From Saprospiraceae bacterium (lineage in GTDB: Bacteria; Bacteroidota; Bacteroidia; Chitinophagales; Saprospiraceae): DNA of 64,000 nt. The DNA lies in the NCBI GenBank assembly GCA_013214355.1, contig JABSSL010000039.1, positions 1-64,000 on the forward strand, given 5' to 3'. The notes below the pieces were generated by a model. It made no database searches, had not been told where the DNA came from, and saw only the letters and a list, made by a program, of their open reading frames with translations. Each line of letters starts with the position of its first letter. Position 1 is the first letter of the stretch. Below are positions 48,328-55,509 of this stretch, one piece after another. The position numbers and the translations under genes are program-made.

Positions 48328-51300
48328 TTACTCAATATTCCGTTCTTCGAAAGCAGACTTCCTGAAGCTAGTAGGAGACTTCCCAATGGTATTGGTAAAG
48401 ACCTGAGTAAAGTAAGTGGGACTCTTGAATCCCGTTTTATAGCTGATTTCTGAAATGTTAAGATCGGACTGTAGCAATAATTCTGCTGCTTTCTCGACGC
48501 GTATCTTACGGATAAACTCACTTGCAGATTGATCAATCAGGGCCTTTAGTTTGCGATGTAATTGGGTGCGACTTACATTTAGGGCAGTCATGAGTTGAGC
48601 TATCCCGAAATCCTCATTTTCATAGTTGTCTTCAATAACTTGATGGGCCTTTTTCAAAAACATTTCATCCAAGGATAGGGTTTTCTCCGATCTCTTTTTG
48701 AGCCTAGAAATGAAATCTCCTGTATTGTATTTTTCCTGTAGCGTTTGGCGCAATTCAATGAGTTTGCGCAGGCGTACTTCCAGCTCTTTTGGATTAAAAG
48801 GCTTAGGTAAGTAGGCATCAGCACCTGTTTCCAGCCCGCTTATTTTAGAAGCTACATCGGCCTTAGCGGTTAGCAACACTATGGGGATGTGACTTGTTCT
48901 TGGGTCTGTTTTTAAGGTGTGGGTGAGTTCAAAGCCATCCTTTTCCGGCATCATGACATCGCTGACGATGAGATCGGGAGTATGCTCGATGGCTAGTTTT
49001 ATCCCTTCTGCTCCGTTCGTAGCTGATTGTAGCTGATATTGGTCCTGTAAGGCAGCTTGTAGATAGGCTAACATATCAGCATTGTCCTCTACTAAGAGAA
49101 CCACAGCTCGTTCTTGGTCACTAGACTTTGGTGTGAGCACTTTCGATGGAGCTGTCCCATTCTGGTTGAGAAAGCCAGCAAGGCTTCCGTTTAGGTCAGA
49201 TAGGCTTTCTGGCTGCTGTAGAGGTGCCGCATTGGTGATGGGCAACTGCACCCAAAAGGTCGTTCCTTCTTGGAGTGTACTATCAACTGAGATATTTCCT
49301 TCCAATAAGTGTACCAGTTCTTTGGTTAGAGCCAAACCAATTCCTGTACCTTCTGCTTTTCTGGTAGAGGTATTATCGACCTGGTAAAATCTATCGAAGA
49401 CTTTGCCCAATTTATTTGCTGGAATGCCAATCCCCGTATCCTTTATTTCTAAGGTAAAATACGCTTCACTATTGATCTCCTTTCTTAGCGTAATATAGAT
49501 ATCACCTCCACTTGGGGTGAACTTAATGGCATTTGATAGCAAATTAGAGACGATAGATAGGACCTTTTCGGGATCGAAATCCATCAGCAGCTCTTTTTCT
49601 TTGGTCAGCACGTGAATGGGGATTCCTTTGGTGGCTGCGTGTGCTCGAAAAGGTTCGAAAATATAGGTAAGGTAGGCGATGATATCTCCTTGTGTTTTGT
49701 TTATCGCTAGGGAACCCGATTCTAACTTCTGCAATTCCAGCATTTGATTGATAAGCTTTAAGAGTTGTGCACTGTTTCGTTGTACTACTTCCGTGTTGGC
49801 TACGATCTCTTTCGCTCGTAGTACTTCTGCTCGTAGCTTGGTCTTGTTATTTATCCCTTGAATGACCGTCAATGGTGTGCGGAATTCATGGGTAATATTG
49901 GTGTACAATTTCGACTTGAACTCATCTAACTTTTTGATCTGCTTCAACTCGGTGATAGCCAATTGCCGATTCAGAAGATAGCGATAGATGTAATATAGGA
50001 GTATCAGTCCTGCCAAGATAAATAGCGTAGTGCCCCACCAGGTCAGCCACCAAGGTGGCAGTATACGCACTTGTAAGGCTAAGTCTTCTTCGGGTGAGGT
50101 CCAGATTCCTCGATTATTGCTGGCCCTAACTCTGAACGTATATCGACCCGGCTTAAGGTTGGTATAATCCACCTGTCGGAAGTTTCCCATGTCCCGCCAG
50201 TCTGGATCTTTACCCTCGAGCATTACCTGATATTGATTGGCTGCTGGATTTTTGAAATGTAAGGCTGCGTAGTGGAAGGTTAGGTTATTTTGAACATGTT
50301 TTAGTTGTAGTTGGTCAACTAAAGAAATATGTTGCTTCAATGGAGAATTTGGGGCTATTGGGAGCTCAATTCCATTGACTTCCACTTTATTGAAAACCAA
50401 TTTTGGAGAAAATTGATCTGTCAAAATGCTATCTGGATGAAACCAAAGTAAGCCCTGTGCAGTGCTGAAGAACAATTCTCCCTGGCTACTTTGTGCGCTA
50501 TACCAAGATTCCACTCTATTAGTTAATAGCCCATCACTGACGTAGAAGTTCTCGTGGGTTGCGGAGGTGGGATCAAAGCAAAACAGACCGTTTTCGCCAG
50601 CTCCCCAGATTCTTCCTCGATTATCTTTTTCAATAGACCGCGGAAAATACGGTTTTAAGAAGCTATACTCTTGGATGAGGGAGTCTTCCAGGCTAATATA
50701 ACTAAGTCCATTGTAATTGGTCCAGAAGTTACCATTGCCTTCTACAATCATATCGACCCCCTTAACGATATCGAAGGATTCAAATGTCTCGGTTTCAGGA
50801 TCAAACCTTTGAGGTGGGCCATCACCATAACCTGTAAGCCAAAATAGCCCCTCATCGTCTTCAATTACGTCCCGTATCCGATTAGCCCAAGGGCCGGTCG
50901 TAGGATCCCCTGTTCGCATATAGGATTTGAAAAGTTCTGTCCTAGGGTCGAAGCGTATGAGTCCTTGTCCCATAGTACTGATCCACAGCATACCTGTACG
51001 ATCTGATTGCTGGATGGCTGTGATATAAACGCCGTCTAAAAACCGGAGGAATTGATTTTGTCCCGGTAGGAACTTATTTAAACCATTGGAGGTACCTACC
51101 CATATTTGCAGATTTCTATCCTCTAGTATATCACCTACATCATCAAATGAAAGGCTAGTAGGGTCATTCTTTATATTTTGAAAGCGTGTGAAATCCCCGC
51201 TCTCCCTATCGTAGCGATTTAATCCACTATTGGTGCAGACCCATAGGTTCCCTTGATGATCCTCCATCATACCATTAACCACATTATCGGACAAGGAATT

Positions 51301-52395
51301 CTTGTTGTCTGGTTCGTGTTCTAGCCAGCGAAAAGCAGAGCGCTCCGGATTATATTTAAGCATTCCACCCCGCCAAGTTCCTGTTAGTATGGAGCCGGAT
51401 CGCGTTTCATAAAAACAATGATATTGGTAAGCAGTACCTGGTGCTTCATGCAGATCAGTATAGACTACTTTGATTGTGGAAAATTCTTCAGTTTTTGTAT
51501 TAAACCACTGGAGAATTGGCTGTAAGCCTCCACGAACAAAAGCCATCCAGATTTTTCCACTCTTATCCAAGTGCAAACGTAGAAACCCGTTATGTAAGGG
51601 AGAATTTGGATTGTTTGGCTGATGTAGATAGTGCTTGAAGGTTTGTGAACTGGGTTTAAAGTTGACTAAGCCAGCTCCACCAGAACTCATCCAGATACTC
51701 CCGTCTGACGAAAAGGTCAGATCATTATAGTTGTTGAGGACATTAAAGCCGGTATCTTGCTGGGACTGAAATAGCTCAAGACCCTCTTCCTCACCCTGCC
51801 AATGATAAAGTCCCCTTGAAGAGGCTATCCAGAGGTCTCCTGTAGGGCTGATCCCCATGTACCGATAGGAATTGGTATGCACTATTCCAGTATCAATAGT
51901 AATGACCTGATCTGCCTGGATAGAATCCATATCTTCTTGCCATTGGAGGCGATGGATGCCGCCATTACTGAACCACATTGTTGAATCGGGAGCTAGCTTA
52001 AAGTCGTTGCCGAGGTAACTAAATCCCGCTTCGAATTGGTACAACAGTCTGATTTGTTCCGTTTCACGGTCAAACCTAAACAGGCGATTTCCTGTATCAA
52101 GAAGCAAAAGGTCTCCTGCGGGATCTTCTTCTATCTGTATAATATGCCACCAATACTGCATACCCAACGATACAGTAGGCTCATACTGATACACTTCCAT
52201 GTGATCCCCATCGTATTTGACTAAGCCTTTTTGAGTACCTAGCCATAGGAGTCCAAGCTTATCTTGCTGCATCGTAAGTACTGAGTTCTCAGGCAGCCCA
52301 TCATCCGTCGTAATGATGTCAAAGCGGACGGTCTTAGTTTGGGCATGGAATATGGCAGGGAGAAACGTTATAAGGCAGAGGAATAAGGCTTTCAT
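48328..52395 (-). CDS. Hybrid two-component system protein (Reg_prop, Y_Y_Y, kinase, receiver, AraC)
   Basis: A 1355-residue HTCS. A signal peptide (MKALFLCLITFLPAIFHAQ) leads to about 14 Reg_prop repeats forming two seven-bladed propellers (residues 25-690; for example NSVLTMQQDKLGLLWLGTQKG, VVNGMMEDHQGNLWVCTNSG). A Y_Y_Y domain (LKPGRYTFRVRASNNRGIW) precedes one membrane helix near 790. Then come the kinase with His near 837 (YTNITHEFRTPLTV), the ATPase domain (NLLSNAIKFTPSGG), a receiver with Asp near 1147 (VSDVMMPEKDGFEL), and an AraC output domain (VSRTQLHRKLKALIDQSAS). Such proteins sense an oligosaccharide in the periplasm and switch on a nearby utilisation locus. Here the likely target is the DUF4838 lipoprotein. 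No SusC/SusD pair is adjacent, which is unusual. Confidence 0.95.
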   Translation of the reverse strand: MKALFLCLITFLPAIFHAQTKTVRFDIITTDDGLPENSVLTMQQDKLGLLWLGTQKGLVKYDGDHMEVYQYEPTVSLGMQYWWHIIQIEEDPAGDLLLLDTGNRLFRFDRETEQIRLLYQFEAGFSYLGNDFKLAPDSTMWFSNGGIHRLQWQEDMDSIQADQVITIDTGIVHTNSYRYMGISPTGDLWIASSRGLYHWQGEEEGLELFQSQQDTGFNVLNNYNDLTFSSDGSIWMSSGGAGLVNFKPSSQTFKHYLHQPNNPNSPLHNGFLRLHLDKSGKIWMAFVRGGLQPILQWFNTKTEEFSTIKVVYTDLHEAPGTAYQYHCFYETRSGSILTGTWRGGMLKYNPERSAFRWLEHEPDNKNSLSDNVVNGMMEDHQGNLWVCTNSGLNRYDRESGDFTRFQNIKNDPTSLSFDDVGDILEDRNLQIWVGTSNGLNKFLPGQNQFLRFLDGVYITAIQQSDRTGMLWISTMGQGLIRFDPRTELFKSYMRTGDPTTGPWANRIRDVIEDDEGLFWLTGYGDGPPQRFDPETETFESFDIVKGVDMIVEGNGNFWTNYNGLSYISLEDSLIQEYSFLKPYFPRSIEKDNRGRIWGAGENGLFCFDPTSATHENFYVSDGLLTNRVESWYSAQSSQGELFFSTAQGLLWFHPDSILTDQFSPKLVFNKVEVNGIELPIAPNSPLKQHISLVDQLQLKHVQNNLTFHYAALHFKNPAANQYQVMLEGKDPDWRDMGNFRQVDYTNLKPGRYTFRVRASNNRGIWTSPEEDLALQVRILPPWWLTWWGTTLFILAGLILLYYIYRYLLNRQLAITELKQIKKLDEFKSKLYTNITHEFRTPLTVIQGINNKTKLRAEVLRAKEIVANTEVVQRNSAQLLKLINQMLELQKLESGSLAINKTQGDIIAYLTYIFEPFRAHAATKGIPIHVLTKEKELLMDFDPEKVLSIVSNLLSNAIKFTPSGGDIYITLRKEINSEAYFTLEIKDTGIGIPANKLGKVFDRFYQVDNTSTRKAEGTGIGLALTKELVHLLEGNISVDSTLQEGTTFWVQLPITNAAPLQQPESLSDLNGSLAGFLNQNGTAPSKVLTPKSSDQERAVVLLVEDNADMLAYLQAALQDQYQLQSATNGAEGIKLAIEHTPDLIVSDVMMPEKDGFELTHTLKTDPRTSHIPIVLLTAKADVASKISGLETGADAYLPKPFNPKELEVRLRKLIELRQTLQEKYNTGDFISRLKKRSEKTLSLDEMFLKKAHQVIEDNYENEDFGIAQLMTALNVSRTQLHRKLKALIDQSASEFIRKIRVEKAAELLLQSDLNISEISYKTGFKSPTYFTQVFTNTIGKSPTSFRKSAFEERNIE

Positions 52396-53361
52396 AGTGC
52401 AGTGTGGTTGTAGTGTACTAATTTGTATTGATATAGTACTACCGTTGCTTGATAAATGGATTTAGGTGTGATTCAGTCTAAGTACATGTTTGGCGATCAC
52501 CCTTTGGGTGGGAAACGCCCCTTTTTTGCTGATATTTCGTTGCTTTCCTTGACCGTATCTCCCAGATATGGCCTGCGAAAAGCGCCTAGTCTCAGCAAAA
52601 CCTGGCCTGCCGGCAGGCAGGAAATGACACTTTTCTCCTCCAAAAGCAATCACCAAATATGTACTAAGTGTTATTCTTATAACAAAAATCACTATAAAGT
52701 GATTTGAAAATGGCTTTCAAATTGAAATTGGTCGAGTTAGGTGCTTTAAAGAATCACCCGAAATAGCCTACGCTTAAAAGATATGTAAATAGTAAGTGAT
52801 CCTAAAACGCTGACTGATGATCTAGTCACAGCCGTCTTGGAATATAAGTGGTAGCATCTTCTGGATAAGAAGGACTACTGGTAAATGACATACAATGAAT
52901 CAGGCTACCTGATCCTTTCAATAAGCCCTCCAACCTTCAGAATCCCCATAACAATTGAGCTGGACTCTTTTAATGCCAAGGCTCCGTTCGTTATCGAATA
53001 TGGTGTGTTTCATTGATGAACGATGAATAAGGAAACAGTAGGCGTTTCAAGTACTTGGTGTTGCTGAATCTGCGAACAATCTGTGTTGATGTAGCACCTA
53101 ATCAAAATAAAAGATTATATTTATACGCTTTCCTAAGCATAAATTCTAATCTGTGTAAATAGAATTGTGCTGATTCACTCTCTTGTTTGAGGGTATCCCC
53201 GGTCTGAAAATTTTCCACGATCCACTAGCGTTGAGCAATGTTATATGCAGAATAATTCCAGATAAACACCACACTGTACCTATTGTAGCGCCCATTGGGA
53301 AGAATCGTATCAGCTGACTGGAACTACATGCTATCATCTTAGAACCTAACTAAACTATATT
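52396..53361. other. Longest intergenic region, with foldback element
   Basis: A 966-bp divergent gap between the HTCS and the quinohaemoprotein gene. Near the HTCS start GTAGT/ACTAC (52410-52414 with 52438-52442) form a spaced dyad. The 191-nt foldback at 52478-52668 follows, then a hairpin AAATCACT/AGTGATTT (52686-52693 with 52698-52705). From 52710 to 53361 I see no gene, only short chance frames. Confidence 0.6.
52478..52668. repeat. 191-nt imperfect foldback (palindromic) element
   Basis: The two ends (CTAAGTACATGTTTGGCGAT at 52478 and, on the other strand, CTTAGTACATATTTGGTGAT from 52668) are inverted copies, and pairing continues inward: TTTTGCTGA (52524-52532) with TCAGCAAAA (52592-52600), and GTATCT (52555-52560) with AGATAT (52564-52569) about a 3-nt loop. 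Many differences between arms are C/T or A/G changes that keep G-T pairing. On one arm sits a self-complementary GCCTGCCGGCAGGC (52605-52618). It resembles a foldback MITE or a structured RNA. Confidence 0.75.
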
Positions 53362-55509
53362 ATGCTTAGATTTTCCTTCTTAAGCAGGACCATCGCCGTG
53401 ATGTTTGTCTTGGTCATGGTCTCCTGTAAAACAGAAACAGAACCGGCCGTAGAAAAAGGATCTGCGGAGCACATTAAGACGGTTACTGAAGCTATTGATG
53501 ATGATGCCTTAGCTAGTGCTAAGGAAAGCTCAAAGGATTGGCTTTCGTATGGCTTGAACTACGCTGAAAACCGCTTCAGCCAATTGGATCAGATCAACAC
53601 TGAAAATGTTAAGGAGCTGGGATTAGCTTGGTCTTACGATCTTAAATCTGTGCGTGGGGTAGAAGCTACGCCAGTAGTGGTAGATGGGATTATGTACGTA
53701 ACTGGGCCTTGGAGTATCGTGTATGCGATCAATGCCAGAACGGGTGAGGAACTTTGGACTTATGACCCGGCAGTGCCCAAGAGTTATGCCGAAAAAGCTT
53801 GCTGTGATGTGGTAAATCGCGGGGTAGCGGTGTACAAGGGACATGTGTACGTAGCTTCTCTGGATGGCCGGATAATCGCCTTGGACGCTGCTTCTGGCAA
53901 GGTGGCTTGGGAAAAGAATACCTTGATCGACCCAGACAAGCCATATACCATCACGGGGGCTCCTCGAGTATTTAAAGGGAAAGTGATTATCGGAAATGGC
54001 GGTGCCGAATACGGCGTAAGAGGATATATCACGGCTTACGATGCATTGAGTGGTGAGCAAGCGTGGCGCTTCTTCTCTGTTCCCGGTAATCCAGAGGAGG
54101 AGTTTGAAAATGATGCCATGAAAATGGCAGCCGAGACCTGGGATCCAGCTGGCAAGTATTGGGAAGCCGGTGGAGGTGGTACCATGTGGGATGCCATGGC
54201 TTATGACCCAGAGCTAAATCTGATGTATGTGGGTGTTGGTAATGGATCTCCTTGGAATCGTCGTCTGAGAAGTCCAGGAGGAGGAGATAACCTATTCCTT
54301 TCTTCTATCGTAGCTTTAAATCCAGATAATGGCGAGTATGCTTGGCACTATCAAACTACTCCTGGTGACCATTGGGATTATACCGCGACCCAAACTTTAA
54401 TTCTAGCGGAACTGGAGATTGAAGGACAAGAGCGCAAGGTGATCATGCAAGCACCTAAGAATGGATTCTTTTTTGTGATTGATCGAACCAATGGTGATTT
54501 CATTTCGGCTGAGAATTTTGTGGATGTGAATTGGGCTAGTGGTTATGACGAAAATGGCCGTCCGATGGAGATCAGCGAAGCTGAGTATAAAGATGGAGCT
54601 TATGAAGCGATTCCTGGCCCATACGGTGCACACAACTGGCACCCAATGGCCTTTAGTCCCCAAACGGGCCTAGCCTATATTCCTGCTCAAGGAGTGCCCA
54701 TTGTAATTGAGGACAATAAGAATTGGGTCTACAATTCCAATGCGGGTGGTGGACCGCACAATAATCTTGGATGGAACTTGGGCGTACTCGTTTCTGCTGT
54801 ACCGCCACAGTCTGCTCCCTTTGGTCACTTAGTTGCCTGGGATCCAGTCAAGCAGGAAGCGGCTTGGAGAGTGGAGCATATTTCACCCTGGAATGGAGGA
54901 GTATTGACGACAGCCGGAGGGTTGGTTTTCCAAGGAACTGCTGATGGTCGTTTCGTGGCTTACAATGCCGCGAACGGAGAGAAATTATGGGAGAGTCCAA
55001 CAGGAACCGGAGTAATTGCCGCAGCTTCTACTTTTGAGATTGATGGTACACAATACGTGAGTATTGCTGCCGGTTGGGGAGGTGTTTATGGTTTGGCTGC
55101 AGGGCATTCTGAAAATGCTACTTCTGGTAAGGTATATACCTTTAAGGTAGGTGGAACGGGTGAAATGCCAGAGTTGGCGCCTTTCGAGCCTGGCAACTTA
55201 ATTGCTGGGGTAGAATACAATCCAGATGATGTCGCCATGGGCGCGAAGTTATATATCAACAACTGTGTTTTCTGTCATGGTGTACCTGCCGTGGCCAATG
55301 GCGGGGCCATCAAAAACCTGGGATATGTAGATCCTTCAGTCATTGCCAATTTGGAAGAGCAGGTATTCAATGGACCTTATCAAGGAATGGGGATGCCCGA
55401 TTTCACCGGCCGCCTTTCTGAAGATGAAGTGATTAAAATAAAGGCCTTTATCCAAGGTACGGCAGATATGGTACGTGCGCAGATGGAAGCAGCAGCGGCC
55501 GGCGGATAA
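53362..55509 (+). CDS. PQQ-dependent quinohaemoprotein alcohol dehydrogenase
   Basis: A 715-residue exported lipoprotein (VMVSC, Cys near 20) of the methanol/ethanol dehydrogenase family with its own haem. The eight-bladed propeller (about 60-600) has the family signs: adjacent cysteines in KACCDVVNRG (near residues 146-147), which form the ring over PQQ, the GDHWDYTATQ motif near 335 with the Asp expected at the active site, and tryptophan-docking repeats such as GLAWSYDL, GEELWTYD and GEKLWESP. A C-terminal cytochrome c (about 615-700) has CVFCHG near 635 and GMGMPDF with the Met ligand. It oxidises an alcohol in the periplasm and hands electrons to its haem. It is a single gene with a good terminator. 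Confidence 0.93.
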   Translation: MLRFSFLSRTIAVMFVLVMVSCKTETEPAVEKGSAEHIKTVTEAIDDDALASAKESSKDWLSYGLNYAENRFSQLDQINTENVKELGLAWSYDLKSVRGVEATPVVVDGIMYVTGPWSIVYAINARTGEELWTYDPAVPKSYAEKACCDVVNRGVAVYKGHVYVASLDGRIIALDAASGKVAWEKNTLIDPDKPYTITGAPRVFKGKVIIGNGGAEYGVRGYITAYDALSGEQAWRFFSVPGNPEEEFENDAMKMAAETWDPAGKYWEAGGGGTMWDAMAYDPELNLMYVGVGNGSPWNRRLRSPGGGDNLFLSSIVALNPDNGEYAWHYQTTPGDHWDYTATQTLILAELEIEGQERKVIMQAPKNGFFFVIDRTNGDFISAENFVDVNWASGYDENGRPMEISEAEYKDGAYEAIPGPYGAHNWHPMAFSPQTGLAYIPAQGVPIVIEDNKNWVYNSNAGGGPHNNLGWNLGVLVSAVPPQSAPFGHLVAWDPVKQEAAWRVEHISPWNGGVLTTAGGLVFQGTADGRFVAYNAANGEKLWESPTGTGVIAAASTFEIDGTQYVSIAAGWGGVYGLAAGHSENATSGKVYTFKVGGTGEMPELAPFEPGNLIAGVEYNPDDVAMGAKLYINNCVFCHGVPAVANGGAIKNLGYVDPSVIANLEEQVFNGPYQGMGMPDFTGRLSEDEVIKIKAFIQGTADMVRAQMEAAAAGG

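Follow-up and report, generated by a model that had tools for sequence, protein, structure and literature searches.

The foldback element and its copies

The window, i.e., the whole 64,000-nucleotide stretch of Saprospiraceae DNA analysed here, includes a 191-base foldback element at 52478–52668 (body 52482–52664), with coordinates accurate to within one base. It is located in a divergent gap between an HTCS gene (48328–52395, minus strand) and a gene that starts at 53362 on the plus strand. The HTCS start is 82 nt downstream of the element, whose better-folding strand (minus, referred to below as the sense strand) is co-oriented with the HTCS gene. Covariance model R1, built from 26 elements, matches a single place in the window, with 163 bits on the minus strand and 45.8 bits on the plus strand.

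On the plus strand the window copy reads C-TAA-(element)-TAA-G. The two TAA triplets (52479–52481 and 52665–52667) can be read from the sequence as a 3 bp target-site duplication. The TIR with the outer arm at 52482–52510 (plus strand) starts with GTACATGTTTGGCGATCACCC and resembles an IS5-family TIR; its counterpart at the opposite end (52640–52664, minus strand), recognised by sequence reading and alignment, starts with GTACATATTTGGTGATTGC. Between them the alignment places, all on the minus strand, the 5′ side of the core at 52582–52600 (helix TTTTGCTGA, then the conserved loop strand GAGACTAGGCG at 52583–52593), the apical hairpin CCATATC..GATACGG with a frequent A-C mismatch at 52553–52571, and the 3′ side of the core at 52520–52543 (conserved loop strand CAACGAAATATC at 52531–52542 and helix TCAGCAAAA). 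The side hairpin CCTGCCTGCCGGCAGGCCAGG (52601–52621, minus strand) is an insertion that is missing from the C223 copy in the alignment.

The earlier note described the whole element as folding on itself, and this foldback is real. The folding energy is -68.2 kcal/mol (z -5.27) for the plus strand and -76.6 kcal/mol (z -5.57) for the minus strand, and none of the 200 dinucleotide shuffles folds as well in either case. The pairing of TTTTGCTGA with TCAGCAAAA, the GTATCT/AGATAT hairpin and the GCCTGCCGGCAGGC side hairpin, all named in that note, are present in the window copy. Palindromes of the GCCTGCCGGCAGGC type occur not only at 52601–52621 but also elsewhere in the same genome (L011:1506-1519 and L021:299-312) and perhaps constitute a second dispersed repeat family.

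A terminator-like hairpin followed by a T run was seen inside the element on the plus strand (52506–52520); the region has two terminator-like sites vs. 0.6 in shuffles. Upstream of the element, with respect to HTCS transcription, there are a small palindrome AATCACTATAAAGTGATT (52687–52704) and a promoter-like site on the minus strand (52720–52691), promoter-like sites being no commoner than in shuffles (2 vs. 3.1). A CRISPR-DR46 candidate at 52673–52710 was rejected, with a score of 24.9 against 50.

In the same genome, a 206-base query found three further full copies (C161, C174, and C223), a fragment of a diverged copy (C90) and some shorter pieces; eight of the latter are 58–123 nt forms that share the ends but lack the middle. 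With up to 150 candidates scored per genome, the covariance model matched 81 places in this genome and 16–140 in seven others, including 140 in G032 and 40 in the single-contig genome G485. The refuting condition of the earlier note fails in all its parts: the element is neither single-copy nor devoid of relatives, and its folding energy is far better than that of shuffled sequence. Full copies are about 160–210 nt long and have TNA followed by GWGC at the ends; at least two end types, GTGCATGTTTGG and GATCATGTTTAAG, coexist in the genome of the window. The C223 copy has a bacterial RNase P RNA gene (L004:1760-2181) at a distance of about 70 nt.

In G032, the terminal motif has 531 matches vs. 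one for the reversed motif. Paired ends (pairs below 420 nt) enclose 42 to 361 nt there, with nested hairpin modules. Elements of up to 361 nt at L186:7161-7521 and L189:2133-2459 carry several nested G+C-rich modules, which looks like repeated insertion of such modules into the element. Two long TIR pairs of this genome (L193:8351-10878 and L196:681-3072) were considered as autonomous elements and discarded, as their long ORFs are, by eye, not transposases. Matches to the element are located at contig ends in both G032 and G004.

R1 matches were found in 45 of 395 genomes sampled from Bacteroidia, representing 19 families as counted from the rows, with E-values from 9.0e-35 (the genome of the window) to 1.4e-4. 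A phylum-wide sample gave matches in 8 of 395 genomes, one of them outside the class (E 9.5e-6); four genomes are common to both lists, and up to seven candidates per genome were scored in either scan. Uninterrupted members are about 165 nt long and mostly keep ACGAGGC..AACGAAGTA, while their TIRs differ widely. With the C223 copy as a query, 9 of 60 genomes, including its own, gave matches. Since those in G029 and G054 are merely palindrome pieces of 22–25 nt, the element is present in seven of the 60, its own genome among them. Scanning GTDB genomes with a pattern yielded 56 stretches from the Saprospiraceae DHS20C18, MAG.096, KLAP184, Phaeodactylibacter, an uncultured Lewinella and HyVt-532, and from the Bacteroidia MAG Prado075, whose stretch (L091) is without a TIR. 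Core-only matches were also considered as TIR-free forms and dropped: three matches in G283 and one in G287 (C67) are cut by contig ends, L268 adjoins an N run, and the others that were read have diverged or different outer arms. One strict pattern had no matches in viral contigs, and three elements used as queries had none in plasmids. HyVt-532 contains further strong foldbacks at L109:2312-2428 and L115:1525-1631, with microRNA-model scores below the cut-offs; these are probably another hairpin repeat.

Insertion footprint and IS5 partner transposons

The triplets flanking 36 core-bearing elements are direct repeats in 26 cases and inverted ones in a single case. Among the direct ones TAA (14) and TTA (7) prevail, followed by TCA (2), TGA (2), and TTG (1); the search pattern favours T and A in the outer places, so the free observations are the middle base and the agreement in direct as opposed to inverted orientation. 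End pairs in G032 have direct flanking triplets in 16 cases out of 20 and inverted ones in none. In addition, a nested element in this genome (C87, L195:14266-14537) interrupts a site at AAACTTA/TTACGC whose uninterrupted counterpart is present at L192:8761 (AAACTTACGCTTGCGC / AAACTTACGC). The TNA direct repeats together with the nested insertion and its intact counterpart therefore indicate insertion with a 3 bp duplication. This agrees with the suggestion of a foldback MITE in the earlier note.

The ends of the element match the IS5-family TIR GAGCATGTTTGG from a genome of the same genus, G003. An 881-base element of this genome (L205), flanked by TAA on both sides, has the GAGCATGTTTGGG TIR at both ends and carries a 263-aa transposase frame with the domains PF13340, PF01609, PF13586 and NF033580. 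Pfam and NCBIfam both assign it to IS5 (NF033580, 173.8 bits with a cut-off of 110; PF13340, 79 bits with a cut-off of 34.3). A sample of 150 genomes from the family contained relatives in 16. Both ends are within one mismatch of TNAG[AT]G[CT][AT]TGTTTGG in four of the 21 IS loci examined (L211, L217, L218, and L227), while related ends, among them GATCATGTTTAA and GAGCATGTCTAA, are seen in others. An IS in G118 has GAGCTTGTTTGG at both ends. In G485, which belongs to a distant family, one IS5 locus ends in GAACTCATCTTGACTT, identical in 16 of 16 bases to the end of the local structured element; there is one mismatch at the opposite end of the locus, the frame is 217 aa long, the flanking triplets differ (TAT/TAA), and it is the only one of six IS5 loci of this genome to fit well. 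A transposon sharing its TIR with the element is thus found in G003 and, with these reservations, in G485.

Elsewhere such partners were not found. In the genome of the window, no IS with the TIR of the element is present among the IS5-type matches checked, and the intact IS5 relative L214 has different ends. G032 has just two PF01609 matches, neither with the TIR of the element, and none for PF13586 or PF13359. PF13340 has no match in 20 of the 25 element-bearing genomes searched. Loci from G400, G213, G178, and G226 lack a local TIR pair, although G213 has one end-like match with two mismatches.

The dispersed copies, TIRs, TNA duplications, nested insertion and, in two genomes, IS5 elements that share the TIR are all evident from the sequences themselves. 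Presumably, IS5-family transposases (DUF4096 plus DDE) recognise the TIRs and move the element in trans, and each insertion would duplicate 3 bp (TNA).

Conserved core and its better-folding strand

Alignment A1 of 26 elements has a consensus of 50 base pairs, in 29 of which both sides have changed, vs. 17.1 in shuffles; none of 500 shuffles reaches any of five measures. Cells of this alignment are paired in 95.0% of cases, compared to 46–51% when partners are slid and 82.4% when they are shuffled, controls which are flattered by the structure being derived from the same alignment and by the relatedness of its rows. HyVt-532 has quite different helices in the same place, e.g., GCGAAAAATTGG/CCGATTTTTC. 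Of the 95 rows aligned for the wider set, 64 were retained, each place being represented by one strand, and gap-rich columns were removed; 63 rows were used downstream. The two loop strands carry 1.27 bits per column in these 63 rows, and helix H3 and the TIRs 0.66–0.68; the other core helices reach 0.91–1.15 bits, which makes the contrast with the loop less sharp, and as distant members were recruited with a model that rewards the loop, its conservation is partly built in. In many families compensatory changes preserve the approximately 165 nt fold, with its strongly conserved asymmetric internal loop (mostly ACGAGGC / AACGAAGTA) and varying helices and terminal repeats. Of the two strands, one is favoured.

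The favoured strand corresponds to the minus strand of the window. It is more stable in all 26 elements, by 16 kcal/mol on average. After correction for composition (60 shuffles each) the difference does not change direction in any of the 26 (mean z -2.5), and in 24 of them the z of the sense strand is lower than that of the antisense strand. Substitutions lean the same way. Only pairs common to both folds were used for this comparison because pairs specific to the antisense fold lean to A-C (G-U:A-C 52:76, compared to 140:17 for those specific to the sense fold). In the 40 common pairs of the 63 rows G-U outnumbers A-C by 101 to 46, where composition predicts 1.22:1; bootstrapping over genomes gives a ratio of 1.52–3.14. 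Out of 41 genomes or loci, 29 lean to G-U, 7 to A-C, and 5 are equal, and common pairs in A1 give 46:15. The earlier note read the arm differences as wobble-preserving; this holds for the family, while the strand difference of the window copy alone (-0.42) is unremarkable and about what its composition gives. Paired changes, TNA duplications and the G-U excess jointly support both parts of its proposal, a foldback MITE and selection for a folded single strand.

No Rfam model matches the window element (E up to 1) or the element in nine other loci (E up to 0.5). GACGAG..CGAA recalls a hammerhead, a reading that was given up on inspection by eye, as the CU expected before GA in a hammerhead is missing.

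Explanations and known systems

We consider it very likely that the element is a MITE with a selected folded strand, an estimate which counts action as ssDNA as a share of the same explanation. A folded shape kept by matched base changes in many families suggests a function for one of the folded strands. The element is probably a long-lived MITE that hitchhikes on transposases, with its core selected as one folded strand, probably of RNA. RNA would be likelier than ssDNA in this role, and the element may have lasted because its TIRs were exchanged to match different IS5 transposases and its core was retained.

The preference for one strand cannot separate RNA from ssDNA. The folded strand could act as ssDNA, e.g., in the lagging-strand template during mobility; the strand bias fits this variant, DNA hairpins likewise tolerate G-T better than A-C, and the TIR duplex forms the base of the stem. 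We find it rather unlikely, as TNA duplications and common TIRs suggest a DDE transposase that works on double-stranded DNA. IS200/IS605-type transposons, which move as single strands, are not known to produce a duplication of this kind.

A more sceptical explanation is that of an ordinary MITE with an unselected fold, where covariation results from DNA-level correction of one arm by the other through quasi-palindrome template switching. The element is indeed near-palindromic along its length, and the eight copies without the middle suggest slippage or template switching. However, arm correction should yield perfect palindromes, while the best conserved part is an asymmetric internal loop (with the recruitment effect mentioned above), and G-U exceeds A-C on one strand. 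We judge this explanation distinctly improbable.

The idea of a cis-acting leader RNA of the HTCS gene, also raised in the earlier note, owes its appeal to the co-oriented position close to the start codon and can be practically dismissed, as the genome of the window has 81 matches and gene-adjacent copies occur in either orientation, which makes such a leader unnecessary. For 78 places with genes counted within 400 nt, co-oriented and oppositely oriented neighbours number 34:21 upstream and 28:21 downstream; these places come from 85 found with three core patterns (some may be chance matches), after the exclusion of seven within ORFs. This is a weak lean with no fixed leader or terminator role, and the orientations are mixed where a cis leader would keep a fixed place and orientation before related genes, as scored on orientation rather than on gene identities. 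That this copy ended up in front of the HTCS gene seems to be due to chance.

Returning to the MITE with a selected strand, we can tentatively extend it to class-wide mobile structured RNAs, in which a loop core of about 90 nt would act as RNA with the ends borrowed from whichever IS5-family transposase is available. This broader possibility is one that we do not favour over its negation. Such a core would bind a host or transposase protein, or protect or process host transcripts; the cargo would then be conserved and the transposon ends exchanged. MITEs are usually regarded as decayed transposons of which little survives apart from the ends. In the present family it is the inside that lasts: the structure is kept across 19 families in one sample, and the ends change. 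Whether a bacterial mobile element without genes can come under selection for an RNA thereby becomes a question open to testing. Rfam would also gain a family, and many repeats in Bacteroidia genomes would be explained, as would, given the matches at contig ends, probably many contig breaks.

Correia/NEMIS and ERIC elements make a TA duplication, and we know of no conserved internal loop in them; their sequence and hosts also differ from those of the present element. They resemble it as short palindromic mobile repeats of Proteobacteria with folding transcripts, and a review reports that Correia transcripts are cut by RNase III and that ERIC has an RNase E effect (PMC10969869). REP and REPIN sequences are likewise dispersed palindromes. 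The earlier suggestion of a REP-type element fails on size and ends, as REPs are 20–40 bp long with GTAG or CGTC tags (PMC3733652), whereas the present element is about 165 nt long with TNA ends. A MITE derived from IS982 has been described (PMC9769881), and no description of the present family was found in the literature covered, which includes few subscription papers.

The element is closest to IS5-family MITEs: it is short, has TIRs in common with IS5 transposons, many dispersed copies and a duplication of fixed length (3 bp). The 3 bp TNA group within the IS5 family is IS1031-like, and an IS5-type transposase is indeed the partner found here. Unlike IS5-family MITEs, it has a core absent from the 12 IS loci searched (best match 14.6 bits, E 0.061), and its structure is kept across many families whose TIRs differ.
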